Assembly (NCBI GenBank): GCA_015063135.1
Contig: SUTA01000014.1
Coordinates: 1-46,222, forward strand
Source: Thermoplasmata archaeon
GTDB taxonomy: Archaea > Thermoplasmatota > Thermoplasmata > Methanomassiliicoccales > Methanomethylophilaceae
Reading direction: 5' to 3'
Length of the DNA stretch: 46,222 nucleotides
The position numbers and the translations under genes are program-made. Positions 1 to 46,222 of this stretch are shown in pieces; the first letter of the stretch is position 1; every line of letters starts with the position of its first letter. The notes under the pieces are model-generated. The model had not been told where the DNA came from. It saw only the letters and a program-made list of their open reading frames with translations, and did not search any database.

Positions 1-76
1 CCGTCGCCCTCTTTTGCGGCCATGACCGCCTTGAAAAATTACGGAGTCGACCGACGACCAGGCTCGAAAAGTCATC

Positions 77-44260: not shown

Positions 44261-44509
44261 ATGATGAAAATAGCCATAGGAATGGACCTTCACGCGAAGA
44301 CAGCTGTCTGTTTTGCGGTCTTCGTAGGCGAAGGAGAACCGAGAGAGAACCACATCGAATTCCTGGAGGAATTCAACAGGAAACACCGCAGCCGTGCGAA
44401 GACGAGGCTGATTTACAGTTCCGTCATGCGTCCGGACATGAAGAAGGAGGCATCGGAGAGGATCAGGCTTGCCAGGGCAAACGGGCTCCTGAGGCACAAG
44501 GACCTCTGA
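44261..44509 (+). CDS. possible transposase fragment (IS110-like N-terminus)
   Basis: An 82-residue frame starting MMKIAIGMDLHAKTAVCFAV, which resembles the first strand and catalytic Asp of DEDD/RNase H-fold transposases such as IS110. The matching region stops after about 45 residues; the rest (KTRLIYSSVMRPDMKKEASER) is not recognised. GGAGAGG is upstream of the ATG. No inverted repeats or downstream transposase domain were found. It may be a decayed insertion sequence or an unrelated small protein. The 294 bases before it (43967-44260) hold nothing I can identify. Confidence 0.35.
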   Translation: MMKIAIGMDLHAKTAVCFAVFVGEGEPRENHIEFLEEFNRKHRSRAKTRLIYSSVMRPDMKKEASERIRLARANGLLRHKDL

Positions 44510-44839
44510 GGGCCACTTTATACCGCACGAAACCTCTTTCCCCGAACTGCTACACCTTCCAGGCGGTTCGGAGCTTTTATACAATTTGCATCGGAAAAAA
44601 ATGTAACGGGTCTTTTTAGGACCGCCACGTGTTATTTTTGGGAATAGATATGCACGAATCATGTGCATACCAATTCAGACTCTTATTATCTAAATCCCGT
44701 TGCATAACGCGGATTTCGGAGTTTTTCGAAGGATCCGATGCAAAAGAGAGGACATCGAGGGGATTCAGAGGTAGGTTCGGAATGAGGAAGTTAGAATAAG
44801 TATACTCTAGTTAGAATATTCAAAGAATTCTGGAGAATA
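44510..44839. other. intergenic stretch without convincing genes
   Basis: Contains an inverted repeat ATGCAC (44650-44655) and GTGCAT (44663-44668) and a ten-base direct repeat AGTTAGAATA at 44789 and 44809, just 3' of the tRNA gene. AT-rich in parts. No protein frame of quality. Confidence 0.4.
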
Positions 44840-44916
44840 TGGCGGGCCTGAAGGGATTCGAACCCTTGACCACCTGATTAAAAGTCAGATGCTCTACCTA
44901 GCTGAGCTACAGGCCC
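44840..44916 (-). tRNA. tRNA-Lys (anticodon UUU)
   Basis: Minus strand folds as a complete cloverleaf: acceptor GGGCCTG with CAGGCCC, D arm GCTC/GAGC, anticodon loop CTTTTAA (anticodon TTT), T arm AAGGG/CCCTT with TTCGAAT, discriminator G. CCA is encoded at 44840-44842. A TATA-like element is about 40 bases upstream of the 5' end. No intron. Confidence 0.96.
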
Positions 44917-44950
44917 ATGGGAAATACCCACGATGATGCGTAGCCTTGTT

Positions 44951-44960
44951 CGGTATATAA
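44951..44960 (-). promoter_or_regulatory. TATA box for tRNA-Lys
   Basis: Minus strand TTATATACCG, centred 40 bases before the mature tRNA 5' end and just beyond the T tracts that appear to end the upstream RNA. Confidence 0.5.
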
Positions 44961-44999
44961 CAGTTTTTTAAGAATGGATCGAAAAACAAGGGAAAAGCA

Positions 45000-45020
45000 C
45001 TGGGGTGTATTGCACCCCAG
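45000..45020 (-). terminator. hairpin and T-run terminator of the structured RNA
   Basis: Perfect eight-base arms (CTGGGGTG at 45000-45007, CACCCCAG at 45013-45020) with a five-base loop; on the minus strand TTTT and TTTTT tracts follow at 44992-44995 and 44982-44986. Confidence 0.6.
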
Positions 45021-45522
45021 CCCTTCCAATGAGGAAGGCGTGCAGGATCAACCCACCCATTACGGGCGCTCCTTCGCAGGAGCTCTGACGTGTCGACGGC
45101 GGTTCTCACCACCACCAGCTCAATCAGCGGGAACATGGCTCGGCGCTATACGCATGGCGCTACGCGAACCATGACAGCGGACTCTATGCCACAACACTGC
45201 GCCATGGGGGCGCACCACCTTTACGGTGAACACTGGCGGTCTCGGTTTCCCGGAGACGTTTCCGTCCCTGGTACTCCTCGGACCGATTACAGCATGTTGC
45301 GGTCCACTACAGCGCGGAGCGCTGAGGGCCAGAGTTAACGCGGCGGAGCCGCGGGGGCAGTCGGGTCGATATGGCAGGGCGCCATATCGCAGCAGGGGAC
45401 GTTTAAGACCCAGTGCTGAACGCCTAATGTCTGATCCACCTAAGCCGGGTTCCGGTCAGAGATGGAGAGCGAACCCATCGCTCATGATATTCGGCGTATG
45501 TCGTATCGATATGCCGTATGTT

Positions 45523-45618
45523 GCAGGGCGAATCACTACCTTGGTGGTAGCGATTCATGTACGTGGAGCCAATCCACGAAAGGCGCTATGAAGCTGACCT
45601 GAATGCTGCTGCTGCGAT
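45523..45618 (-). repeat. 96-bp direct repeat, copy A
   Basis: Identical to 45663-45758 with a 140-base period. Contains the 27-base hairpin and the CGTGGA/TCCACG hairpin. Confidence 0.95.
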
Positions 45619-45662
45619 TACGTTATGTCGTGCGGTTCGACCCACAAACCGAACGCTTGGCC

Positions 45663-45758
45663 GCAGGGCGAATCACTACCTTGGTGGTAGCGATTCATGT
45701 ACGTGGAGCCAATCCACGAAAGGCGCTATGAAGCTGACCTGAATGCTGCTGCTGCGAT
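45663..45758 (-). repeat. 96-bp direct repeat, copy B
   Basis: Exact match to copy A. The sequences between and after the copies differ. Confidence 0.95.
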
Positions 45759-45795
45759 GATGCGTCGGTTACTACGATGACGTGTGTTCGACTGT

Positions 45796-45822
45796 GAATC
45801 ACTACCTTGGTGGTAGCGATTC
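45796..45822 (-). repeat. third copy of the 27-base hairpin
   Basis: Same 27 bases as at 45530-45556 and 45670-45696, followed by a diverged version of the neighbouring hairpin (GTGG...CCAC), so the 96-bp unit probably once existed three times. Confidence 0.9.
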
Positions 45823-46037
45823 CTGGATGGCGTGGTTCTGATCCACAATGTTGCGATGATGCAAACACTTCAGCGTCGTGGTGACGCTGACCAACCAGAC
45901 AAGCTGTTCTCATGATCCAAAGGCGGGAATTTCACCCACCAACACGGTGCCAAGTCTCCAAAGGCGCTAAGCCAACGGTCGACACAAACTCTAAGTGAAT
46001 TCATGTTAAACTTGGGGACTACTACATCCGCTTACAT

Positions 46038-46048
46038 GTATATAATAC
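46038..46048 (-). promoter_or_regulatory. TATA box for the structured RNA
   Basis: GTATTATATAC on the minus strand, followed about 25 bases later by the likely RNA 5' end near 46017. Confidence 0.5.
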
Positions 46049-46222
46049 TTTCTAAGATGTATTATTTAGGGAAATGGATTATCGAACTCTTACTTTCCTG
46101 ACTTTGACACAGCTGCGCGATAGCGTCAGCTGACAAAAACGGGAATCAATGGAATTTGACAGCGGCTCACGGCTCCGCTGCGCGGGGTCAAAGGTTACTC
46201 GTTTTACCCTGCCTGCGCGTGT
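46049..46222. other. window end, no gene identified
   Basis: Contains short GC-rich inverted repeats such as CAGCTG...CAGCTG near 46113-46131. No protein or RNA gene is recognised. Confidence 0.3.

Follow-up and report, generated by a model that had tools for sequence, protein, structure and literature searches.

A predicted free-standing structured RNA of about 1 kb beside an archaeal tRNA-Lys gene very probably belongs to a new, dispersed family of RNAs

The large HEARO RNA is encoded alongside its partner protein, IscB. As far as the accessible parts of the literature go, the large ornate RNAs traced to date are bacterial or phage-borne; the family described here would be archaeal. According to the accessible part of one description (PMC12286853), GOLLD and ROOL are large RNAs encoded by phages and prophages and frequently located near tRNA islands; GOLLD has a universally conserved 3′ region and a variable 5′ region, sometimes with tRNAs in the linker; and OLE, of about 600 nt, is well conserved in Gram-positive bacteria. 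We are highly confident that the locus analysed here encodes a non-coding RNA, free-standing and about 1.04 kb long, that represents a new family dispersed within the archaeal family of its host. A literature search weighted to openly accessible papers yielded no earlier description that we recognised, and we did not recognise the family in the accessible parts of the Methanomassiliicoccales genome paper (PMC4153887) or the 104-motif paper (PMC2864571).

The window, by which we mean the whole stretch of 46,222 nucleotides that was analysed, had been predicted to carry an ornate RNA locus of about 1 kb on its minus strand, and both the strand and the coordinates of that proposal were borne out. 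The main features are the following.

44980 to 46019, minus strand: predicted transcript of about 1.04 kb, its probable ends and nature judged from the TATA position, the T-rich 3′ end, folding and the lack of an exceptional ORF
46039 to 46046, minus strand: TATA-like box, starting 31 nt upstream of helix P1 and matching TTTATATA at 7 of 8 letters
44981 to 45020, minus strand: hairpin (45000 to 45020) followed by a T-rich stretch, the probable transcript end, from direct reading of the sequence
44840 to 44916, minus strand: tRNA-Lys(TTT), the downstream neighbour, outside the RNA and with a TATA-like box of its own

The original prediction had placed a TATA box at the upstream end, a hairpin with a T-run at the downstream end and the tRNA-Lys promoter beyond it, and all three are present, the last as tatata at 44954 to 44959 on the tRNA-Lys side. 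The 5′ boundary of the RNA, placed by its homologues, is helix P1 at 46015. The claim that there is no credible protein frame also held, the longest ORF on either strand of the region being 121 codons, a length matched by 38% of 200 dinucleotide shuffles, with no Pfam match. The minus strand from 44970 to 45960 has a minimum free energy of −413.9 kcal/mol (z = −6.5, with none of 20 shuffles equally low), the plus strand of the region gives z = −4.5, and the whole unit of 1,045 nt gives z = −5.7. Where at least eleven strong hairpins had been claimed, the minimum free energy (MFE) fold contains 21 (at least 4 bp, loops of 3 to 9 nt). A scan of 44700 to 46222 with the Rfam 15 covariance models returned the tRNA-Lys, sub-threshold matches overlapping it and nothing else, leaving the window RNA without a match to a known family. 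Archaeal RNase P RNA (RF00373) was ruled out as its identity; the genome's own copy is on contig C18 (199.6 bits).

Homologues were hard to find with the whole RNA as query. BLASTN returned only the self-match in the RNA's own genome, no match at E ≤ 0.001 in any of 59 relatives and, beyond the window, only short matches with E ≥ 0.1 among the 31 genomes of the genus. In the 147 genomes of the order there was one clear match across genera (41 nt, 85%, E 1.7e-5), to a genome of another genus in the same family, G081, where it lies near the 5′ end, as it does in the window RNA, and heads about 1.3 kb of intergenic sequence rich in hairpins (998 nt of which fold with z −7.1). The G081 contig is identical to SUSU01000003.1 (Thermoplasmata archaeon isolate SIG2) over the 3,041 bases compared. 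As a check on the original prediction, BLASTN gave this one match across genera and, within the genus, nothing beyond chance level. Matches in eight further genomes of the order (E 0.004 to 0.041 over 19 to 43 nt), inspected by local BLAST, were treated as chance because none was recovered by the covariance models described below. The window RNA had no match among phages, and its single plasmid match covered 37 nt at E 0.3.

Covariance models were built from two (R1), six (R2) and 16 (R3) sequences. R1 found four more members, at 42.7, 36.9, 36.2 and 27.8 bits; R2 found 16 copies in the 147 genomes of the order; and R3 returned exactly the same 16, at 50.1 to 80.8 bits, and no further match at E ≤ 0.1. 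Seven copies are in G069, four in G013, two in G012 and one each in G000, G081 and G123, so that carriers make up 6 of the 147 genomes, 3 of the 31 in the genus and 3 of the 74 with completeness of 90% or more and contamination of 5% or less. Stricter Infernal filters were applied in these searches, and weak members may for that reason have been missed. In a class-wide sample of 400 genomes, drawn evenly and searched with R2, the only added matches scored 22.9 to 24.1 bits and were not accepted; G012, G069 and G123 were absent among the matches listed. Several weaker candidates were set aside: G036 (19.0 bits with R1, apparently a coding region by eye, no R3 match at E ≤ 5); L113 and L114 (17.4 and 17.0 bits with R1, none with R3); G015 (24.1 bits with R2, falling to 17.6 with R3); weak R2 matches in G117, G133, G037 and G045 (18.6 to 20.3 bits); G393 and G283 of the class sample (23.4 and 22.9 bits with R2); the viral matches L156 and L172 (15.3 and 16.3 bits), which we read as chance; a Pirellulaceae match, L107 (15.8 bits); and L074 and L075, which have a 17-nt hairpin pattern and nothing beyond that hairpin in common.

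What unites the 16 copies is a domain of three helices at the 5′ end, kept both in sequence and by compensatory changes; in most of them a TATA-like box stands upstream of it at a constant spacing. In the window copy its parts are as follows.

45950 to 46015, minus strand: conserved 5′ domain of three helices, defined from 16 homologues in six genomes, covariation counts and single-sequence folds
46011 to 46015 paired with 45950 to 45954, minus strand: helix P1
45997 to 46006 paired with 45982 to 45991, minus strand: helix P2
45976 to 45978 paired with 45958 to 45960, minus strand: helix P3, with an upper stem of 45971 to 45973 paired with 45963 to 45965
45979 to 45981, minus strand: junction CGA
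45955 to 45957, minus strand: junction AGA

The conserved part covers about 66 to 71 nt. P1 is CCAAG/CUUGG, with the variants CCAAA/UUUGG, ACAAA/UUUGU and UCAAA/UUUGA; in most copies P2 starts with ACA and ends with UGU; P3 reads CCG/YGG, above which come a short internal loop and an upper stem that varies; and the CGA and AGA joints are invariant or nearly so. On the 16-row alignment, which was fitted to the model, 95.7% of cells are paired, as against at most 48.3% when the partner is slid; 9 of the 15 pairs show two-sided change, a level that none of 500 shuffles reached, and 27 cells are changed on both sides (7.1 in shuffles). An unfitted MAFFT alignment of six rows has 96.6% pairing and a covariation score of 0.262 versus 0.112 (0 of 500 shuffles). 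By pairing and score the homologues covary, as the original prediction required, but on these six rows only three pairs change on both sides, which is unexceptional (100 of 500 shuffles). A MAFFT alignment of all 16 copies visibly misaligned P1 and P2 and was excluded from the counts. With no Rfam match, with homologues and with covariation, the reading as an ornate RNA, either an archaeal counterpart of the known ones or a new class, is supported.

In 13 of the 16 copies a TATA-like 8-mer, agreeing with TTTATATA in six or more of its eight letters, begins between −29 and −33 relative to P1; among 9,174 background slots of the same width, 1.2% contain one. Archaeal TATA boxes keep a usual spacing to the transcription start and, given that spacing and the position of the box, transcription would begin at P1 or a few bases before it. 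This is consistent with the observation that the similarity between G069b and G069c sets in 4 nt ahead of P1.

Beyond the 5′ domain the bodies differ between most copies and, in most, consist of short, densely arrayed hairpins whose loops come from a common repertoire. In the window copy the following were noted.

45872 to 45888, minus strand: hairpin of the body whose pentaloop, ACCAC, recurs in other, non-alignable copies
45796 to 45822, 45670 to 45696 and 45530 to 45556, minus strand: three copies of a 27-nt hairpin with an ACCAA loop
45663 to 45758, minus strand: 96-nt body repeat, copy 1 in transcript order
45523 to 45618, minus strand: 96-nt body repeat, copy 2

The two 96-nt direct repeats are 100% identical at a spacing of 140 nt, and internal repeats occur in several copies besides this one. 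Estimated lengths range from about 160 to 1,325 nt, with 3′ ends placed by eye and G069e and G069f running off their contigs. Past the 5′ domain, few copies align at E ≤ 1e-4: G069b with G069c, G012b with G013d, G069c with the 3′-terminal part of G013a, and G123 with G069d over a tRNA-like stretch of the latter. In 12 of the 16 copies folding is better than in shuffles, with z at −2.56 or beyond; G012a, G069d, G069g and G123, all of 305 nt or less, reach only −1.63 to −0.39. The MFE folds of all bodies contain 198 hairpins against 83.5 in 60 shuffles, and three loop classes, picked after the loops had been inspected, are enriched over shuffles (GNRA 25 vs 0.8, RCCAN 13 vs 0.2, UCA-type 36 vs 1.4). 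A less biased test, with four near relatives dropped, counts identical loops of at least 5 nt between pairs of RNAs and gives 13 against 0.7. Loop–loop kissing potential shows no enrichment (11 vs 9.1; 179 of 500 shuffles). G069e contains an ORF of 189 codons, a length reached by 1% of shuffles.

Taken as a whole, these observations are best explained, in our view probably, by a new RNA family with a trans-acting, modular scaffold or decoy function; the scaffold or decoy mechanism itself we offer tentatively. The 5′ domain could be a handle by which one common partner, a protein or a complex, recognises or caps the family, and the body may fold into a compact scaffold whose modules serve as binding sites or decoys. 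The RNA would act in trans, since the downstream gene points toward the RNA in 7 of the 13 copies where it is legible. A more speculative elaboration, which we think unlikely, is a system of constant heads and variable bodies, with one to seven copies per genome sharing a nearly constant common handle and bodies continually rebuilt, as in variable-region systems, because they compete in an arms race against some agent that reads the folds of RNA. The module vocabulary would comprise GNRA, RCCAN and UCA-type hairpins and captured tRNA cloverleaves, and the opponents could be fold-recognising agents such as tRNA-targeting toxins, nucleases or viruses.

The tRNA-like modules bear directly on the alternatives. 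With a strict T-arm motif (a G closing TTCRANN, at least 4 bp) we found 15 T arms in 7 of the 16 RNAs (G069a, G012a, G013a, G013b, G069d, G013c and G123), where shuffles average 0.17 (with a maximum of 2 over 200 of them) and the antisense strand has none; the window copy and eight others have none. In the 15 copies other than the window's, Rfam 15 gives above-threshold tRNA matches inside three, its remaining matches being sub-threshold; the tRNA model scores 53.5, 51.3 and 51.0 bits in G013c, 42.4 and 30.8 in G069a and 31.2 in G123. The seven copies resemble tRNA genes in having T arms, D arms and acceptor stems; they differ in that the anticodon loop of some modules is short or aberrant, several having no normal one. 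The acceptor stems of the three G013c modules differ in their letters, yet pair at 6 of 7 positions.

One alternative is that the RNA is a decoy or resembles an antitoxin, soaking up nucleases or enzymes that act on tRNA. This possibility, which we hold to be doubtful, is supported by the T arms and cloverleaves and by the genes next to some copies. A TRAM/radical-SAM protein of the tRNA-modification type adjoins G069a, and PUA-domain proteins adjoin four copies, with PAPS_reduct and PUA at G069c, G012b (assigned by sequence similarity) and G013d and PUA alone at G069e. They lie at:

L146, 3966 to 5873, plus strand: PUA-domain protein beside an RNA copy
L146, 2041 to 3873, minus strand: PUA-domain protein beside an RNA copy
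L148, 3680 to 4681, plus strand: PUA-domain protein beside an RNA copy
L152, 9230 to 11359, plus strand: PUA-domain protein beside an RNA copy

As possible RNA-modifying partners these proteins are a lead, no more. Against the decoy reading, the 9 copies without a T arm include the window's. In addition, G012b and G013d share a neighbourhood, which points to descent in place, and with the same kind of gene at G069c the three PUA loci may be one ancestral locus.

A second alternative, improbable in our judgement, is that the bodies are relics, a graveyard of decaying tRNA genes and simple hairpin repeats expanded by replication slippage, with function limited to the 5′ part. The tRNA-like modules, the internal repeats, including the window's, and the rarity of alignment between bodies are all compatible with decay. 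However, the G013c stems still pair although their letters differ, non-alignable bodies have loop sequences in common, nine copies have no T arm, and the 5′ domain is strongly kept.

Equally improbable is a transcript-borne mobile element that copies itself, for example by reverse transcription. In its favour, the pair G069b and G069c, at different sites of one genome, is alike as far as the 3′ end and unlike in promoter and neighbouring genes, and there are seven copies in one genome and a patchy occurrence. Against this, G069f and G069g, and likewise G069a and G069d, share promoter sequence too, and the common neighbourhood of G012b and G013d speaks for descent in place; G081 and G069e, each placed after an ABC-Sel1 gene, hint at a further case. 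Within 5 kb of the copies 104 ORFs were listed, and of the 32 proteins among these that were scanned with Pfam, none with a match was a transposase, integrase, reverse transcriptase or phage protein, at least eight having no Pfam match. The neighbours are ordinary chromosomal genes (CobN, radical-SAM/TRAM, aldehyde dehydrogenase, M48 peptidase, EamA, MatE, MFS, Sel1/ABC and others). In the window, starts of an IS110-type transposase were read by eye at 44261 to 44509 and 44629 to 44796 (plus strand) and were rejected, with no Pfam, NCBIfam or PDB support. Directly downstream of G069d, L164 carries at 2 to 55 (minus strand) an archaeal C/D-box sRNA-like match (sR1, 34.0 bits, under the gathering score of 45).

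An mRNA leader acting in cis on the downstream gene, like a riboswitch, is very improbable and already disfavoured for the family as a whole, since by our own reading 6 of the 13 legible copies are followed by a gene on their own strand (in the window, the tRNA) but the other seven by a convergent one, and the neighbours are functionally unlike one another.

The proximity to tRNA genes is a separate matter. Besides the window copy with its tRNA-Lys, two copies have an intact tRNA gene within 200 nt, giving 3 of 16.

L116, 1 to 74, minus strand: tRNA-Gln upstream of G069a
L149, 3826 to 3902, plus strand: tRNA-Thr upstream of G069f

The expected number is 0.18 for random placement and about 0.7 to 0.9, on rough assumptions, if copies are confined to intergenic regions, and once the intergenic placement of both is allowed for, the link is suggestive at best. 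In all 28 other loci of the genus (L032 to L044 and L046 to L060, read by eye) tRNA-Lys(TTT) precedes a different, conserved leader, followed in L040 by frames resembling RNA polymerase subunits; in the window genome the tRNA lies, without that leader, between the RNA and a phosphate-uptake region. The leader was rejected both as a counterpart of the window RNA and as RNase P RNA. L055, from a relative in the genus, contains a pyrrolysine insertion element (PYLIS_3, 44.1 bits) at 2809 to 2908 on the plus strand, a sign that the order is probably Methanomassiliicoccales.

The reading that we prefer, a new family with a modular function in trans, supplies R3 as a model with which metatranscriptomes from gut and rumen archaea can readily be searched. 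With its several natural bodies on one common head, the family also permits clear comparisons on the question of why very large RNAs are retained by cells. The window RNA has no Rfam match to HEARO. The published accounts of the other three, as far as they are accessible, allow a closer comparison. Like OLE, the RNA is chromosomal and large, with protein partners plausible; unlike OLE, the family is conserved only at its 5′ end, and there is no Rfam match. With ROOL it has in common its size range, its structural density and, in some copies, a tRNA neighbourhood; it differs in lacking an Rfam match, in a body that varies among copies and in flanks without phage context, as judged from an incomplete scan that found no phage-type Pfam family in 32 of the 104 ORFs. 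GOLLD is the nearest in plan, being a large, dense non-coding RNA with one conserved end and one variable part, with tRNAs or T arms inside that part (here in 7 of 16 copies, the window's not among them) and often with tRNAs nearby. Membership of GOLLD was rejected on three grounds: the conserved end is 3′ there and 5′ here, most bodies are unalignable and there is no Rfam match. The archaeal copies are moreover chromosomal, among ordinary genes and up to seven per genome, and kissing loops are not supported in them, complementarity, a measure of loop pairing and not of assembly, being no higher than chance. On this evidence the family appears to resemble GOLLD and ROOL in design while being a member of neither, with an architecture that combines a conserved 5′ end, a non-alignable modular body, many copies per genome and, in some, tRNA-like modules.
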